DNA of 64,000 nucleotides from Labia minor (Eukaryota > Arthropoda > Insecta > Dermaptera > Spongiphoridae), in contig OY720344.1 of NCBI GenBank assembly GCA_963082975.1, positions 94,555,228 to 94,619,227 of the forward strand, read 5' to 3'. Shown in pieces: positions 30,801-63,009 of the stretch. Numbering within the stretch: position 1 is the stretch's first letter; every line of letters begins with the position of its first letter. A program made the position numbers and the translations under genes. The notes under the pieces are model-generated. The model was not told where the DNA came from and searched no databases. It saw nothing but the letters and a program-made list of their open reading frames with translations.

Positions 30801-30892
30801 GGTTTTCAAGAAAAGTTCTCCAAATGGCAAAATTACCGTTTATCTAGGAAAAAGAGATTTCGTTGATCATATTACACATGTGGATCCGATTG
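30801..30892 (+). CDS. krz: Non-visual arrestin, coding exon 2
   Basis: Acceptor TGTTTTAG|G and donor ATTG|GTATGT. Encodes the last base of R17, residues 18-47 ([20 protein letters not shown] and [10 protein letters not shown]) and the first base of D48. This is the arrestin beta-strand I region. K20 and K21 are the phosphate-sensing lysine pair, and D36 of the KRDF motif is a polar-core aspartate in the family. Arrestins bind phosphorylated, active GPCRs at the plasma membrane and mediate desensitisation, endocytosis and scaffolding. The D48 codon joins correctly to exon 3 across a 14-kb intron. Similarity is unmistakable and no stop interrupts it. Confidence 0.95.
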
Positions 30893-45124: not shown

Positions 45125-45315
45125 ATGGGGTAGTTCTTATTGACCCAGATTACGTGAAAGATCGGAAGGTTTTTGGTCATGTACTCGCAGCTTTTCGCTA
45201 TGGCAGAGAAGATCTTGATGTGCTTGGACTAACCTTCCGGAAAGACCTGTACCTGGCTGCCGAGCAGATCTTCCCCCAAGACGCTCCACCTTCGAGACCT
45301 CTTACAAGGCTTCAG
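45125..45315 (+). CDS. krz: Non-visual arrestin, coding exon 3
   Basis: Acceptor TTTACAG|AT, donor CTTCAG|GTATAC. Completes D48 and encodes residues 49-111, ending in RPLTRLQ. Contains the highly conserved block [20 protein letters not shown] (residues 70-89) that defines the arrestin N-domain. Ends in phase 0. No frameshift or odd residue seen. Codon use is balanced compared with the AT-rich introns around it. Confidence 0.97.
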
Positions 45316-46235: not shown

Positions 46236-46550
46236 GAGAGATTGATGAAAAAACTTGGGCCCAATGCACATCCTTTCTATTTCGAACTCCCACCTCACTG
46301 CCCTGCTTCAGTTACACTTCAACCAGCACCAGGCGATACCGGCAAACCTTGTGGAGTGGATTATGAATTAAAAGCATTTGTAGGGGAATCCCAGGATGAC
46401 AAACCCCATAAACGGAATAGTGTTCGACTTGCAATCAGAAAAATTATGTATGCCCCGAGTAGCCAGGGAGAGCAGCCGTCAGTTGAAGTGAGCAAAGAAT
46501 TTATGATGTCTCCTAATAAATTACACCTGGAAGCTTCACTCGACAAAGAG
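46236..46550 (+). CDS. krz: Non-visual arrestin, coding exon 4
   Basis: Acceptor TTTTTTTAG|GAG and donor AAAGAG|GTAATT, phase 0 at both ends. Encodes residues 112-216, from [20 protein letters not shown] to [10 protein letters not shown]. Includes [19 protein letters not shown], where R175 corresponds to the polar-core arginine (R169 of vertebrate beta-arrestin 1). The polar core holds arrestin inactive until receptor phosphates disrupt it. Closes the N-domain and reaches the inter-domain hinge. Confidence 0.97.
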
Positions 46551-53476: not shown

Positions 53477-53634
53477 CTCTACCACCATGGGGAAAATATC
53501 GCTGTTAACGTCCACATTGCCAATAATTCTAATCGCACAGTGAAGAAGATAAAAGTTTCGGTACGACAATTTGCGGACATTTGTCTCTTCAGTACAGCAC
53601 AATATAAATGTACAGTGGCTGAAGCGGAAACAGA
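53477..53634 (+). CDS. krz: Non-visual arrestin, coding exon 5
   Basis: Acceptor TTTGACAG|CTC, donor ACAGA|GTGAGT. Encodes residues 217-268 ([20 protein letters not shown], then [20 protein letters not shown] and [12 protein letters not shown]) plus two bases of E269. This is the first part of the C-domain. It ends in the variable acidic loop. The split GA|G codon joins either exon 6a or exon 6b to give glutamate. Confidence 0.97.
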
Positions 53635-55290
53635 GTGAGTTTCAAATGCCAAAAGTTTGGCGTTTTTGATTTTTTCCACATTATTATTATTATTATTTTA
53701 CAGATTACCCAACAACTTAATATCTAACTTTTTTTTCTTTTTGGCTCCCTTTAATAACTCATAAGTTGTTTTCATGTCATTGTTCCTTGATTGAACTTTT
53801 TTGCCTTTTTGTTCTTCGGTGGATATTCCTTCAGCAGCTGCTCACTTCGATAATTGATTATTATTTTTTTTCTTTCTTCCTTAAATAATTTTTCTCTGTG
53901 TGTATCTACTATAATAAATATATAGAAACTTTGCGTTAATTTGATAAAATCTTCTTAATGATATTTCTTTGATGATTCTTTTCTTTTGCCTTTTGTAATA
54001 AGTAAACAAAACAATTTTTTTTACGATATTCTTCAGAATATATTGATATATTAAATTATAAGGAAAACCATTTAAATATCAAATATTTAATTAGTTAATA
54101 TATTGTTCATGTAATCAAAATTATTCTCGAAATAAAAGAGAAAGCCATGCGAGGAAATTTAGCCGGATGGATAACATTGAATTTTTCTATTTAAACAAGC
54201 TTCACGTTATAAGTATATAGTTAAAAAAATAATTATAAATTAATAATTTATTAAAAAATTCTCTTATTTAAATAAAGTACATATATTATATACTTCCTAT
54301 ATAGTTCTTGTTCTAAAAAAATTAATTAAAAGAAAAAACACCTTTTCTTTTGAAAAACAAAAAAAAAAGTTAATCATCTTCATTATTATAAACATTCTTT
54401 AACGATAGGTAGAAACTACCTTCAAAAATATATTTTTTTAATCAAAATATACTCTCTTTCCATATTTCTTTAAAAAAATAATTAATTTTGCTATTCTTAG
54501 AAATATATATATATATATATAATAATTCCTTTATACTTTTTCATAAAAAAAAATATTTAAAATTATTATTTGCTTTTAAATATATATTCTTTATTTAAAT
54601 ATACATTCTTATTTGCTTATAAAATTTATTTTTCAAAAAAAAAATGTTAATTAAATTTATCCAAAAAATATATATATTTAATTTCTCATCCCCTTTATTA
54701 ATTCTATTAAAATTTTTCATAAGAGATGGAATGTCTAGTATTTAATTCTCTATTTATTGTTTCAAATATTTTTTATTATATTTTAAGAAATATGGTAAAT
54801 TTACTTTTTTAGTAATGGTTATCTCGTGACAAAATTTTTCAGAAAAGATGAAGTTTGTTGAATAAAATTCGCTATAAATTGTTTCATATATATATAAAAT
54901 TTTTCTATATTTTTTATAGTTTAGGGAATCTGGCTTTTTCACTTTTTTAATATTTATATATTTATGAATGTATTTAAGCGAATCAGAATGAGTTGAAACG
55001 TGAAGAGTTTGAAAAAACTCATCAAAAATTTTTTCGATTGAAAAATAAAAAAACTAAAATACATAAAATAATGGAATAAAATACACAATTATATTTTTTT
55101 ATTTTTTTAATTAAATTAAACCATTCGCAAATTATTCATATAATATTATATATGAATGATATTAAGAAGATTTATCAAATTTAATGATTAATCCATTTTC
55201 TCCTAAGGTAATAGTACCTACTGGTGCTATTTATGGCAGCCAAGTGATTTCTAGTGTTTTTCCTCTGACATCCCAAAGGTCGTGTTCCAG
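53635..55290 (+). other. Arrestin intron 5 (1.66 kb)
   Basis: AT-rich with several A/T homopolymers and a TA run at 54506-54522. No repeat family or conserved element recognised. Confidence 0.85.
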
Positions 55291-55437
55291 GACGGATGGC
55301 TGCCCCGTGTCCCCCGGCTTCACCCTCTCTAAGGTTTTCAGCGTAAGGCCTTTGCTGGCCAACAACAAAGATAAACGAGGCTTAGCGCTCGATGGACAAC
55401 TCAAACACGAGGATACAAACCTGGCCTCGTCCACCAT
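55291..55437 (+). CDS. krz: Non-visual arrestin, alternative exon 6a
   Basis: Acceptor GTTCCAG|G, donor ACCAT|GTGAGT; 147 nt. Completes E269 and encodes [40 protein letters not shown] and DTNLASST, ending with two bases (AT) of the next codon. D303 (LDG) and D310 (HED) correspond to the polar-core/gate-loop aspartates D290 and D297 of beta-arrestin 1. R298 replaces the tryptophan found in exon 6b; arginine is also what vertebrate beta-arrestins have here. The next residue would be Met or Ile rather than Leu. Same entry and exit phases as exon 6b. Confidence 0.93.
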
Positions 55438-55604
55438 GTGAGTCTGCAAGGGATTCAACCCTTAGCGCGTTGTTTTTTTTATCTTCACTTGATCGAATCC
55501 CTCTTAGATTATTGCTCATCTTGTAGTGTTGATTGTGCTGGTAGTTTTTTTTTTCTTTTGGTCGCACTTTATGTAAAATGTTAAAATCGATTGCTAATGA
55601 ATAA

Positions 55605-55605
55605 A

Positions 55606-55640
<35 letters not shown>
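55605..55640. repeat. (TA)n microsatellite
   Basis: Perfect TA run about 170 bp after exon 6a. The two flanking ORFs on opposite strands are produced by it. Confidence 0.9.
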
Positions 55641-55644
<4 letters not shown>

Positions 55645-56148
55645 CATTATAATAAAAAACATCTCTATTCAATGCATTTAGTTTTTAATATTTTTTATAT
55701 AAATATAAATTTATTTAATTTTTATATAGGAGTAACTGATGATATTAATTATATAGTAATATTGAGGAGAAAAAAAATATTTTCAAAATTAATTTCTAGT
55801 AGATTTTATGATATTGTTGTTGCTTTTTTTTGTGAAATTTTCAAGGCATAGATTCCATGTTTAAGGCTTTATATTGTTTCTTAAATTGTGCTTTAGTAAT
55901 CGAATAATATATATATATAATATATATTATATAAGTTTACATTCATTTATATTTAAATAGATAACAACCTTTATTGTTTAGGTAACCAATTTTATTAAAG
56001 AATATTCATCCTCCGTTGTAAAAAAAATACAGGAGAACAGTTATATTATCTTTGGGAAAGATATAATACTCCCACTATGTTTAATTGTATTATATAATAT
56101 TCGAGTAATGGAATATATATACATATATATTAGTTTTTTTTTTCTTAA

Positions 56149-57328
56149 CTTCACTTGGCGTCTGTCTCTTTGTCTGTCTGTTCGCTCTTTTGACAAATTG
56201 AAATCGATTTTTCATCGACTTGTTATTGAGATAGACTTTTGAAAATTTTTATAGATATTTCAATGGATCCCTAGAAGGTATAGAAGAAATATAATTGAAT
56301 TATAATTAATTAGCAATTAATTACTTTTAGTAACTAACTCTTTTTGTATTGTTCCAATTAATTTTTTTCAACGGATTTTGAAACATAAATATTGATTTCA
56401 AGATAGATTTTCATTTTGAACGTATTTAAAATTATTTCATAACATTAAAATTAATGATGAATTCTTAATAATCAGTTGTATCGCCGATGAGGAGGGTTTT
56501 CTTCCCCTCAGATGGTATAGAGAAAATTTTTTTTTATATATTGTATATGTCCCCGATAGAAAGGAATCAAACAATAGAATAATCTTTTTTTTATGAAGAC
56601 AATATATATATATATATATTTATAAAATCTCATATTAATAAAAATAAATATAATATAATAATTATTATTCAATAATACCATTTACTTAACATAAATGCAT
56701 AAAATCAATTTTGGAAGATTAATATATTTTTTTGTTTTATTCAATTTGTAAATTTTCGTATAACTTCATCCAACTTTCCAATGGACTAAAAAATATAAAA
56801 TAATTTTTCTATTAAGCTTGACAAAGTTTATGGATGAATTGCTTCATATTCAAAGAAAAACGTTGGGCGCATTTAGTTCTATGCTATTAACTTCCTTTAT
56901 ACAGCTATAATTAATATATATATATACTAAGATACATACAACACTAAAACACTTAATTAACAAGTAACACTATTTCTTCAAATATAATCAACCATTTTAG
57001 ATTTGATTGATAATATGTAAATTTAATAAAAATTCTTTTAAAATTTGATACATTTTTTGATATAAGTACATTACAATGAAAAATAATAAAAGATTAATTT
57101 CTTAGCTCTCAAACTATCAATTTTATTGATAAAAAAATTTGTCACTTTATGTGTTTAATAAAATTTTTATTATTACAAAAATTTGACTTGATTGTTCATA
57201 TAAATAAATTAAACTAAATGCGTCCAACGTTTTTCGTTGAATATGAAGCAATTCATCCATAAACTTTGTCAAGCTATAGAAAAATTATTTTATTCTTTTT
57301 AATCCATTGGAAAAACGTTATTTTATAA
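56149..57328 (+). repeat. Family F repeat, copy F2, rearranged
   Basis: 56149-56330 and 56990-57328 match copy F1 (6421-6926) collinearly. The intervening 660 bp includes, at about 56776-56880, an inverted copy of the right end (57215-57315), so the last 540 bp have 100-bp inverted ends. No coding content. Confidence 0.65.
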
Positions 57329-58631
57329 AAATTTTTTATATTTATATTATTTTTAAATAAACATAAAAAGTTAAAAATTAATTAATGTTAACATAAATAT
57401 AATATAATACAAGTTAATGAGCCCTTTTGAAATAAAATATGACATATATAAATTGATTAAAATTTATATAATGAAATAATTAAATTGACAATTTTATTAA
57501 GTCCTGAATCTTAGAAATGAATAAGAATTAAGTGTATAATTAATTTATATTTAATTTCAAATGTACTTAACAAGATTTTAGCGAAAATTGAATTATTCTT
57601 AAATAATAAAGAGATTAATCGTTATAATAAATATACTTATTTTATATTAGATTTTGTCTTGTTTTTAGTCATAATATAAGATGAAAAGAAAAATTGAATT
57701 GAATTCAGAATTTATTTATCTTAGAAAAAATTATTTTACACATCAAAAATATAAAAGAATAAATAAATATATGATAAAACAATGATAATGATAATATTTA
57801 TAAAGAAAATAAAATGGGTAATTAAAAAAAAGAGAATATATCCCTGTATTCATATATTATAATCAACGATTGTATAAAGCCAATCATTTGAATGAATGAT
57901 GCTTGATTATTAATGAAAATTAAACAATAAATATATTTTAAAATAATATAAATCATAGGCCGGCGAATATAATAATTGAATGTTTATATACAAGATCATT
58001 TGTTTTAGAATTGCATTAGTAGGTTCAATTTATATTTTAATTTATTTTGTAGGTATTAATATATAGACTACATGTATACATTACTGTTATAGTTTTAAAT
58101 GACATAGATCTGGACAGACAAAATATATTTTGAAGGGGATGAAAGGTTCAGCAAATTGTCTTTATAGGTTTTGTCATATAAATAAAGTTTTATACCTAGC
58201 TCCATTTGAGCAATATAAAAAAGTTTTATTAAAACTTTTTGAAATCATTTTTATATATTTATATAGGATTCGGATTGAAATACTTTATAATGATTTCGAA
58301 TGCGCTAGTAAAAGTTATCTTTTTGTTTTTTAAAAAGAGTTGTTTCTCAATTTGAACTGTAACTGAAACTTCACATTCATTAAAAAAAACGCCTAAAAGT
58401 TATGCAACTATATGCATTGGTACATATTTAAATAAAAAATATTTAATAATTAACAAAAGCGAATTTTAAATATTGGTTTAATATTTACTTTTATTGTTCT
58501 ATATAAAAATGAAAAAGGATTTTTATAAATAAAAAGAAAAATCATCAAAATATATAATAAAACAATTTGATTATAAACGAATTATTATATTTATATTTAG
58601 TTAAATTATCTATTGATTTAAAAACTAAACT

Positions 58632-58735
58632 TAATCAAGGGCGTAGTTCTGTGGTTATAGGAAGAATTATTGAACTTAAGTATGAAGGTTCAAACCTCAC
58701 CAGGTTCACAAAAATTTAAAATATATAATTGTTAA
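58632..58735 (+). mobile_element. tRNA-like SINE head (fragment)
   Basis: GGGCGTAGTTCTGTGG resembles an A-box region and GAAGGTTCAAACCTCACC a B-box, 40 bp apart, followed by an A-rich tail. Diverged from the SINE at 35323; not a foldable tRNA as far as I can see. Confidence 0.4.
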
Positions 58736-58829
58736 ATTAAATTAAAATAAATAAAACAAAAAAAGCAAGGCTAATTAAATAGTAATTAAATAATATTTGA
58801 AAATCCCATTAGTTCTTTAGATCTGACTT

Positions 58830-58864
58830 TTTACCGACCGACGATAGTAAGGGAGGTATTGTTT
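58830..58864 (+). repeat. Short 5' fragment of family A (A7)
   Basis: TTACCGACCGACGATAGTAA and the following GGGAGGTATTGTTT match the 5' tip of family A exactly, then similarity stops. A 5'-only fragment of this size suggests abortive insertion or deletion. Confidence 0.7.
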
Positions 58865-60443
58865 AAAATAATTTTGAACTAGTTAGAATTTAATTCAATT
58901 ATTAAAGTTATCAATACAAGTTCTAAGAATATATATAAATATGTTATTTTTTTACCATAAAACAAATGCATTTGAAAGAAAAATTGCTTTTTATTCAGTT
59001 TCATATAAATAAATTAAAATTAAAATATTGAATATATCATTATACAAATAGTTACTGCTTAATATAAATTACTCCTTTATTTAGAAGCTATTGAATACTC
59101 CTAGCATTTGGACAGGGCAGCCTCTATCAAGTTGAAGCCTATGTGGGTAGTGGTGTTGTATGATCAGTACAAGTCTAGTTATTGAAAAGGTAGGATTCTA
59201 TTTCCCTTTCCTAAACAAATAACCTAATTAATTTTAACAATCAATTATTTTAATAATCAAAGAGATCTTTTTTTTACTCAACTGCAAATATTTATATACT
59301 ATTTGAATTTTATCTTATTAAAATTACTTAAATATTTATTCATTAGCGAACGATTATAATACTTTACTATAACTCACCCATATGGTGGAGGAATTAACAT
59401 TAGAATATGGTTGTTATATCTCATAATATAAATATGATCTTTCTGTTAAAGGGATTTTATTAATAAAATAATATTTTATCTTGAATTGTTTGGTTTTTGG
59501 TGTGACAAACTTTCTTCTGTAGGTGTGTATGTTTTGTGGGGTGGACCTTTTCCTTTCAGGAAGGGACTTTCTTCACACACAACAGCATGTGCACAACAAC
59601 TTCAACAACAGTGTGACACGGAGCCCTTCGCTTTTTTTATTTTTATTTTTTAATTTCATTCAATTTTTGAAATATTATTTTATTGTTCATATTTATTTTT
59701 CTTTTATTTAATAGCTCTCTCTGTTTTTAATCTGATATTCTCCTATTTTCATTAATTTTATATAAATTATTATATTATATATATATATTAAATATTAATT
59801 TATAGATAGATATAATATATATATATATATATCTATATATCTTTATATATATAAATATATAGTTTGATACTTTAAATTATAGTTTCATTTACTGCATTAT
59901 ACGATGTTGTTCTAATACAGTACAAAGGCAAAATGTATTTGAAAATTAAACCAACCTCGTTCACAAATTGATAAGTGAGAAAAATAGTGGGATTTGAAAT
60001 TATAAGAATAAGTTTACAAAATTACTTCATTGTCATCCATCCTTTATTGATAAATCTATTAATTTAATTAGTTATCCTGATTTATTCTTTTAATTTGTTT
60101 TATGAATAAAGAGATATTCATCAATGAGATCAATTTTATGACCAGGGTAATAGATTCAAATATATCAAAAAATTTTTATGATAAATACATTTAGTTAATA
60201 GGTGTCAATGGATAATGAATAGCAAAATTAATGGATTTAAGTATGAGTGATTTATATATCTGAAGTATTATATCTAAATTTCCATCTGGTTTATAATATG
60301 TACATATATTCTAATAACAATTCATTATTTGGATACTTCATTGTGATACACATTACGTTTGTAATTAATAATTTATTTTGTTTACATGGGCTAGAGAGTG
60401 GGAATGGTAAATAAAAACTTCTAAATTGTTCAATTGGATTTAG

Positions 60444-60447
<4 letters not shown>

Positions 60448-60495
<48 letters not shown>
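60448..60495. repeat. (TA)n microsatellite, about 24 units
   Basis: Longest pure TA array in the window. Confidence 0.95.
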
Positions 60496-60500
<5 letters not shown>

Positions 60501-60610
60501 AATTATTTTTTATGTTCAAAACTAAAAAGTATTATGGTTACTTAATAACACATCATATAGATATTCAGCATTCTTCCTCATTCCTTAATAATCGAGATGA
60601 TTGTGGTGTA

Positions 60611-60706
60611 GGAAAAAAGTAAACGCCAAGGTGTGTGGCGCTATTGTCGGGCATAGCACTTAATCAACCGGTTAATTGCCCGACAACCTTGCGTTTATTT
60701 TTCCCC
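60611..60706. mobile_element. Small foldback element (about 96 bp)
   Basis: Outer arms GGAAAAAAGTAAACGC and (reverse of right) GGGGAAAAATAAACGC. Inner arms TGTCGGGCA and TGCCCGACA. AACCGGTT lies at the centre. No target duplication resolved. Confidence 0.5.
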
Positions 60707-60772
60707 ATCACTATACATTATAATAACTTAAATAAAAAATGGTTATTTAGAATATTATTATATATTATATAT

Positions 60773-60932
60773 CAGGCGTGGCCAAACTTTTGATATTTAG
60801 AGCCATATTGAAAAATTAAAAATGTTTAAGAGCCAAATCGGAAAAAAATTTTATCTTTTTTTTTGTGTCGACTTTAAATTTTTTAATTGAGCCACAATTA
60901 ACTCAAAAAGAGCCACGGTTTGGCCCTCGATG
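60773..60932. mobile_element. Degenerate hAT-like MITE
   Basis: Starts CAGGCGTGGCCAAACTTTTG and ends ACGGTTTGGCCCTCGATG, with AGAGCCA motifs repeated between, as in SPIN-like hAT MITEs. Terminal repeats are imperfect and no octamer duplication is visible. Confidence 0.5.
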
Positions 60933-61199
60933 TTTTAAAGGTTTACTGAAAAATATTTATATAATATAAAATTTCAACTTTTCTTTTTTCTTCTTTAATT
61001 ATTTATTATTAACTTTTTGAAAATTTCTAACATGATAGGGAAGAATTTGTATTTGAATTTGTTTTTTTGGATAATGGATGATTATTATTATTATTAAATA
61101 ATTAAAAAGGATGACATTTAATGATAAAAACGAAAAATATATTTATAAAAGGAAAGCAATCGCTTGATTAGTAAAGTTGTGGTTGTTTATCTTTGTAAA

Positions 61200-61443
61200 G
61201 AGTGAGGGGGGGAGGGGGATGGACTTTTGTGAGAGGTTGTTTGTTTTTTTGGGTGATCAGTTGATGTCTGTAGTGTGTTTAATGGAAGTGCGCAGTTGAG
61301 TAGTTGGAAATGGGGTCTGTGCCCTGCCGGAAAAGGCTGTGGCCCCTTTTGGCGGCCGGAGCTCGCTGATCAACGTGTGAACGAGGTTCGTGGTCCCGGT
61401 GGGTTGGAGGTCCCTTCTGAGGTGGGCGTGGTGGGTGTCGTAG
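61200..61443 (+). promoter_or_regulatory. G-rich flank of exon 6b, possible splicing control region
   Basis: G-rich runs GAGGGGGGGAGGGGG at 61205-61218 and repeated GGG tracts at 61401-61450. Four G-triplets at 61424, 61433, 61443 and 61448 have loops of 6, 7 and 2 and meet the usual quadruplex pattern across the acceptor of exon 6b. There is no clear polypyrimidine tract before the acceptor. A regulatory role is inference. Confidence 0.35.
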
Positions 61444-61587
61444 GGACGGGTGCCCGGTGGGGCCCGGCTTCACCCTCAGCAAGGTGGTGATGGTGCGGCC
61501 GCTGCTCGCCGACAACAAGGACAAGTGGGGCCTGGCGCTCGACGGACAGCTCAAGCACGAGGACACCAACCTCGCCTCCTCCACGCT
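61444..61587 (+). CDS. krz: Non-visual arrestin, alternative exon 6b (GC-rich copy)
   Basis: Acceptor GTCGTAG|G, donor ACGCT|GTGAGC; 144 nt. Completes E269 and encodes [39 protein letters not shown] and DTNLASST, then CT of a leucine codon. Identical to 6a at 42 of 47 aligned residues, one codon shorter, same phases. Has W in KDKWG, as I recall for insect kurtz. Third positions are almost all G or C, in sharp contrast to exon 6a and all other exons. All differences are substitutions compatible with function; there is no stop. Either copy completes the gate loop. Confidence 0.9.
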
Positions 61588-62458: not shown

Positions 62459-63009
62459 TATTGTGACAAAAAAATTTCCGGAATTTTGTTTTTGTCGATA
62501 TTCGTGGTGTGGTGGTGCATCATGAATACTTTCAGTAGAGACAAATTGGCAAGAAGGAGTATTATGTGACTGTTTTGAGGCGTTTGCGTGAACGGGTCCG
62601 TCGTTTTCAGCCGGAATTGTGGACAGACAATTCGTGGATTTTGCTCGAAGATAACGCGCCATCTCATCGAGCCACGATTTTGTGAACGCATTTAAGGCAA
62701 AACTCGCGATAAATACCATCGACCAGGCACCATACAGTCCAGAACTGGCCCCGTGTGACTTTTTCCTCTTTCCAAAACTAAAATTGCCACTCCGGGGAAC
62801 GCGTTTTGACTCCGTACCGAATGCAACGAGAGAGCTGAACGCCATCCCGGCCAACGCCTATAAATAAATGTTTCGAAGATTTGAAGAAGCTTTGGAATAT
62901 GTATATTGCTTCAGAAGAGGCATATTTTGAAGGAAACAAAATAAATATTGAAGAAGATTAACTATTTTGCGTTTTATTTAGAAATTCCGGAAACTTTTTT
63001 GTCACAATG
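62459..63009 (+). mobile_element. Mariner-like element (551 bp), internally deleted
   Basis: TA-flanked inverted ends: TATTGTGACAAAAAA(A)TTTCCGG at left and (reverse) CATTGTGACAAAAAAGTTTCCGG at right. Plus-strand transposase remnants: HHEYFQ-stop near 62515, then EYYVTVLRRLRERVRRFQPE, LLEDNAPSHRATIL (carrying the second catalytic Asp motif, 62641-62682), a stop, YSPELAPCDFFLFPKLKLPL (third motif) and, after another frame break, the tail ASEEAYFEGNKINIEED-stop at 62962. The N-terminal third is deleted. Overlapping minus-strand ORFs are shadows. Confidence 0.85.

Follow-up and report, generated by a model that had tools for sequence, protein, structure and literature searches.

The window, a stretch of 64,000 nucleotides from the genome of the dermapteran Labia minor (contig C1, OY720344.1; C1:94555228-94619227), carries a beta-arrestin gene of the kurtz type in which a single coding exon is present in two copies. 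Both copies have an open reading frame, are constrained in sequence and compatible in phase, and they share one set of downstream exons. They are designated exons 6a and 6b and lie on one strand, spaced by 6,006 nt:

55291..55437, + strand: exon 6a, Arg type; 147 nt, ending with AT; doubles from other species have this type as their first copy (40 of 40)

61444..61587, + strand: exon 6b, Trp type; 144 nt, ending with CT; doubles from other species have Trp in their second copy in 36 of 40 cases

Note that in this list and in the text the type of a copy is given by the residue preceding the motif GLALDG, while “double” identifies a protein that has both copies. An earlier note on this DNA had described two exons about 6 kb apart coding for the same stretch of the arrestin C-domain, and its coordinates proved exact. 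The splice sites also bear out its description of the junctions. The GA|G codon opened at the 3' end of exon 5 (GA|gtgagt) is completed by 6a as well as by 6b, and each copy leaves two bases, AT and CT respectively, to which the next exon adds C to form a codon for Ile (6a) or Leu (6b). The sites of both copies and of the earlier exons are all GT-AG with consistent phases. The gate-loop aspartates, which the same note had read in each copy, are present in 6a and 6b. The gene has, in summary, homologous neighbouring exons of equal phase, the hallmark of duplicated alternative exons. A degenerate 38-nt pattern of the lariat loop has two matches in the window, namely 6a and 6b, and none in 100 shuffles, while an independent repeat finder pairs 6a with 6b (76% over 152 nt).

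The remaining coding exons are distributed over the window and over the adjacent segment L003 of the same contig, the gene spanning more than 37 kb:

30801..30892, + strand: beta-arrestin coding exon, N-domain (100% identical to termite and locust beta-arrestin by tblastn; GT-AG)

45125..45315, + strand: beta-arrestin coding exon, N-domain (tblastn; GT-AG, phase)

46236..46550, + strand: beta-arrestin coding exon, N-domain to start of the C-domain (tblastn; GT-AG, phase)

53477..53634, + strand: exon 5, common to both isoforms, ending GA|gtgagt (tblastn; GT-AG)

L003 (C1:94619228-94629227), past the window: three coding exons (tblastn and translation)

from L003:200, about 200 nt beyond the window end: first downstream exon, reading C|GTTGCCGAT

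about L003:2,740-2,877: second downstream exon

in L003: last downstream exon, ending IIFEDFARLRLKGVETEA, then stop

The exon carrying the start codon was not found by motif search, and scans of the window with Rfam and for tRNA genes gave 0 matches each. In tblastn searches with three relatives a single set of downstream exons was found, and the interval from 6a to 6b contained no further arrestin exon; the duplication is thus confined to exon 6. The first 251 residues of the protein are 96% identical to the locust protein and about 95% to termite and planthopper/leafhopper relatives. Its membership of the beta-arrestins (non-visual arrestins) is seen in the gate-loop aspartates, in the C-terminal motif IIFEDFARLRLK found past the window, in the best PDB matches of exon 5 spliced to 6a or to 6b, which are beta-arrestins, and in the near relatives P0001, P0104 and P0125, which match the Pfam domains Arrestin_N and Arrestin_C above cut-off.

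The DNA around the copies has some features of its own. GC content in the window is highest at 6b (61395-61538, 0.70 per 144 bp, the window mean being 0.26) and 6a lies on one of the two next peaks (55288-55431, 0.56). GC at third codon positions is 0.98 in 6b, 0.67 in 6a, 0.37 in the shared exons and 0.24-0.36 in the downstream exons. GC-biased conversion between the copies and splicing signals are possible causes. The intron that separates 6a from 6b has a 73-nt inverted repeat (56806-56878 / 57212-57284, 92% complementary, the arms 333 nt apart) that looks like a small transposable element, and the intron 3' of 6b has broken transposase-like frames (62539-62961), which by their motifs we take to be mariner-like.

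The composition of 6b, whose GC content greatly exceeds that of the flanking DNA (the 0.70 value being the top 144-bp peak), is what could speak for an assembly artefact, a contaminant or a fusion of two paralogous genes; the earlier note had itself raised the first and the last of these. Such an origin is extremely improbable. Neither the window nor L003 has any N, and contig C1 measures 126 Mb in an assembly of 604 Mb in 71 contigs. A DNA search of the whole genome with 6b finds two places only, 6b itself and 6a (76%), there is one downstream exon set, and other species have the same pair in the same order. The protein search of the genome identifies the beta-arrestin-type locus and three other arrestin loci that are much more divergent (C4 18.45 Mb, C1 17.6 Mb, C9 45.5-45.6 Mb). 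Residues other than Arg at or near the Arg/Trp site are found in two segments of these loci, Trp in L026 (C9:45636722-45636940) and Phe in L014 (C1:17615340-17615846).

When 6a, less its additional Thr codon, is compared with 6b, 43 of 48 residues agree, and 22 of these 43 are encoded by different codons. The nucleotide changes at codon positions 1, 2 and 3 number 8, 3 and 24, and the NG86 method gives dN 0.10 and dS 2.13, a rough value since dS is saturated. In 20,000 runs of random mutation, each introducing as many nucleotide changes as separate the copies, no outcome retained 43 of 48 residues together with an open frame; the best run reached 35. Residue changes that are this few despite saturated synonymous sites indicate that both copies have long been under selection at the protein level, in agreement with the earlier note, which had proposed this dN/dS comparison.

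The pair is widespread in arthropods. Three protein searches gave 861, 1,882 and 3,694 matches, of which the best 120 each were taken, yielding 242 distinct proteins from records clustered at 90% identity; the counts given here and below refer to these listed matches. They comprise 135 proteins with only the Trp copy, 65 with only the Arg copy, 40 doubles and two with neither (note that a stricter typing pattern misses one copy in four records). The pair that the earlier note had suggested looking for in relatives is thus present in 40 of the 242 proteins. The doubles come from 39 of the 145 named species, including a termite, bugs, beetles, a mayfly, a dragonfly, Hymenoptera and flies among insects, and the decapods Penaeus and Scylla, the isopod Armadillidium and the ostracods Darwinula and Cyprideis among crustaceans. 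Their first copy has Arg in all 40 cases, while the second has Trp in 36, Cys in three (lice) and Phe in one (an ostracod). Since the order is the same in insects, malacostracans and ostracods, the comparison dates the pair to before the split of these groups. A single Arg copy is found in 13 of 13 chelicerate rows (10 species) and in two of two springtail rows among the best matches listed, and the vertebrate beta-arrestins in the alignments have Arg at the site; Arg is therefore likely ancestral and the Trp copy derived. Drosophila kurtz was not among the best 120 of the 3,694 matches obtained with the sandfly query.

The two types differ also in the residue that follows. Next to a single Trp copy it is Leu in 130 of 135 cases; for single Arg copies it is Ile, Met or Val in 59 of 65. 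The junctions in L. minor fit these types (AT+C, Ile after 6a; CT+C, Leu after 6b), so 6b bears two marks of the Trp type. In a first tree of the short exon peptide with 94 rows, one per species and type with identical sequences dropped (Anopheles being kept only as A. arabiensis), the types cluster: the Arg and Trp labels require two changes each versus shuffled means of about 28.

How the copies are used can be approached from the same records. Proteins with a single Arg copy and proteins with a single Trp copy are both found in 17 of the 145 named species, supporting alternative use of the copies and matching the two isoforms, different in the receptor-activation region, that the earlier note had foreseen. 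Bradysia, Phlebotomus papatasi and Zootermopsis have single-Arg, single-Trp and double proteins, which in Zootermopsis are on contigs of equal size. Two sandfly records are without either copy: in these isoforms (P0166, P0167) both are skipped and VESE is joined to IADPTQ, giving an arrestin devoid of the lariat loop. A set of 30 records has no species label (25 lgn, 5 jgi) and comes from contigs of 1.2-5.9 kb. As the arrestin frame is intact on contigs of this size while the gene exceeds 37 kb here, we infer that they are assemblies of mRNA. None of the 30 is double, versus 40 of the 212 named records (Fisher p 0.006), a difference to be read knowing that several of the 30 seem to come from chelicerates, a group in which doubles are not expected (13 named rows are chelicerate too), and that with clustering at 90% a double may represent shorter members and an unlabelled double may hide behind a named one. 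Judged from these sequence records, splicing of one copy at a time appears to be a major mode, and double inclusion is possible.

Inclusion of both copies as the normal state, the main protein then having two tandem lariat loops, is very improbable. It is compatible with the 40 of 242 listed records that hold both copies and with the frame that is kept, but single-copy proteins are far commoner among the matches listed (135 Trp, 65 Arg), all 30 unlabelled records are single, and a structural strand would be duplicated. Structure prediction does not contribute to this point: the double-copy termite protein was modelled with a mean pLDDT of 52 and its first copy was unstructured, but the single-copy control was also poor (56), and the unstructured first copy is for this reason no evidence.

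Strictly mutually exclusive exons, kept apart by a dedicated mechanism and with the doubles of other species being errors of gene models, are an unlikely explanation as well. The presence of both single forms in 17 named species and the absence of doubles among the 30 short-contig records would be expected from it, and some doubles are indeed odd or partial: P0008 has foreign sequence between the copies, while P0014, P0034 and P0037 are partial models or have abnormal ends. However, doubles are found in 39 species of many orders, one of them being P0029, a Lygus UniRef entry presumably derived from a transcript, and no feature that would enforce exclusion was found in the spacing, the splice sites, the exon lengths or two RNA tests. 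The copies are 6 kb apart, not too close to be spliced together, and their GT-AG sites are not incompatible; 147 and 144 nt are multiples of three, so that joining 6a to 6b keeps the reading frame and creates the sense codon ATG at the joint. In the RNA tests, the GC-rich flank of 6b folds no better than shuffles (z +1.6; 94 of 100 shuffles as good) and the duplex between the acceptor regions of 6a and 6b is at the shuffled mean (-36.6 versus -36.3 kcal/mol; 128 of 300 shuffles as low). Stronger pairings of the 6b acceptor are found elsewhere, the best being -63.6 at 46271, inside an exon; these are raw values without shuffle comparison. The earlier note had argued that a codon would be split between the copies on double inclusion and that only one of them is likely used. 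The joint codon does form, but it is no obstacle, the frame being kept and doubles being annotated in 39 of 145 species; likewise, alternative use is supported by the comparison whereas strict exclusion is not, given these doubles and the two sandfly records with neither copy.

The region in which the two copies differ has been described in other arrestins; the statements on mutants and contacts below are those of the accessible parts of the articles cited. Exon 6 encodes a strand of the C-domain together with the larger part of the lariat loop, the loop corresponding to residues 274-300 of beta-arrestin-1 (PMC10447241). Counted along PDB alignments, the Arg/Trp site is R285 of beta-arrestin-1 and R291 of bovine arrestin-1. 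The gate loop is defined as residues 291-307 of the bovine protein, R291 being its first residue (PMC12733242); by this definition the Arg/Trp difference falls within the gate loop, which the earlier note had called identical in both copies. With R291A or R291E, binding to active rhodopsin rises by 20-30% when the receptor is phosphorylated and more than doubles when it is not, so that selectivity is reduced; R291Q behaves similarly (PMC12733242). The R285A substitution leaves almost no binding to the glucagon receptor, R285 engaging in a pi-cation contact with a receptor Trp (PMC10447241). R285 is among the residues that always contact different receptors (PMC10866553); it also has ligand-dependent states and is a site linked to ERK (PMC7519161). 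By analogy, the proteins made with 6a and with 6b may differ in receptor preference or in phosphorylation dependence.

The explanation that we consider probable is that of a kurtz-type gene with an ancient duplicated loop exon, one copy of which is usually spliced, and whose Arg/Trp swap likely tunes the engagement of receptors or of their phosphorylation states. The pre-mRNA would usually take one copy, giving rise to two arrestins alike except around the lariat/gate loop. The main change, Arg to Trp at the R285/R291 site, would affect a residue that touches receptor loops and helix VIII and that influences phosphorylation selectivity, and splicing would likely set which receptors, or which phosphorylation states, the arrestin engages. 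Exclusion would not be absolute, as frame, splice-site type and distance permit inclusion of both copies or of neither, and annotations of other species include isoforms of these kinds.

A number of observations weigh against this reading. Many species have single-copy proteins alone among the listed matches; some lineages may thus have reduced the pair. The Cys of three doubles and the Phe of another (4 of 40) show that Trp is not indispensable, and the site is not fixed across arrestins, the three divergent loci of L. minor having Arg (C4), Phe (C1 17.6 Mb) and Trp (C9). Trp at R285/R291 is not among the mutants in the accessible parts of PMC12733242, PMC10447241, PMC10866553 and PMC7519161, and the results for the mutants that are described are opposite, binding to rhodopsin being increased and binding to the glucagon receptor nearly lost, so that the Arg-to-Trp change could act in either direction. 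The pyrimidine tract of the 6b acceptor is poor (0.39 versus 0.61-0.83 elsewhere), a weakness suggesting that 6a would be the default copy here and that 6b would require activation. Finally, in a second tree, built without the Arg/Trp column and without Cyprideis, Bemisia and Ladona (long rows in the first tree), and comprising 37 first, 37 second and 13 chelicerate copies with 6a and 6b of the window, the free search places 6b beside first-type copies. Note that a single clade of the second copies and 6b is not rejected (p-AU 0.73), its likelihood being slightly above that of the free tree. Trees of only 43-44 columns give no proof of orthology, and it is the Trp and Leu marks that carry the argument.

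The last two points, together with three residues of 6b that are unusual in comparison with other Trp copies (V, M, VRP), are those that favour 6b being a remnant that splicing has ceased to use in L. minor. This is hardly probable, considering that 6b has kept its open frame, the Trp, the gate-loop aspartates and the Leu junction codon, and that dN is 0.10 against a saturated dS. A more far-reaching proposal is possible though rather doubtful, namely that one gene provides two functional classes of pancrustacean beta-arrestin through a splicing switch older than the divergence of insects, malacostracans and ostracods, in which the change from R285 to Trp would toggle between phosphorylation-dependent binding and a permissive binding driven by the receptor core, the tandem-loop form being a third regulated state.

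The organization resembles that of the tandem duplicated exons of insect Dscam, Mhc and nAChR alpha6, which are likewise homologous exons of equal phase, used alternatively to swap one region of the protein. In contrast to them, the arrestin pair has only two copies, placed 6 kb apart, and its double inclusion keeps the frame and is annotated elsewhere, with no enforcing feature in the tests run. Mammalian ARRB1, with its long and short forms, and the retinal p44 variant are also cases of one arrestin gene giving isoforms by splicing, but in these variants the residues gained or lost lie elsewhere than in the lariat loop; two ARRB1 isoforms were reportedly, by its title, the subject of a 1993 study. 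We know of no mammalian arrestin splice variant that swaps the lariat loop or residue 285. Vertebrates have two non-visual arrestin genes, and their beta-arrestin-1 and -2 are similar to the arthropod pair in providing two closely related non-visual arrestins per animal. They are products of separate genes, both with Arg at the site in the alignments, whereas the arthropod forms come from one gene and differ there. Drosophila has a single beta-arrestin orthologue according to the accessible part of PMC9624432, which does not describe the exon pair; the main text of PMC3303723 has no arrestin, kurtz or krz.

The earlier note knew of no described exon pair of this kind in kurtz, and none was found among the open-access articles listed as matches, judged by titles and beginnings of abstracts, a search to which subscription papers and bioRxiv preprints are largely external. 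The isoforms are already in public annotation, and what is new, as far as searched, is therefore that a conserved exon pair has been recognized, along with what it swaps: a known kind of architecture at a new, functionally pointed place. The conserved swap at a residue of receptor contact and selectivity is a natural, long-tested substitution, and the pair makes the control by splicing of arrestin receptor choice and phosphorylation dependence directly testable. Studies of insect beta-arrestin should state the isoform used. If alternative use holds, one gene may yield two kinds of protein that switch off receptors.

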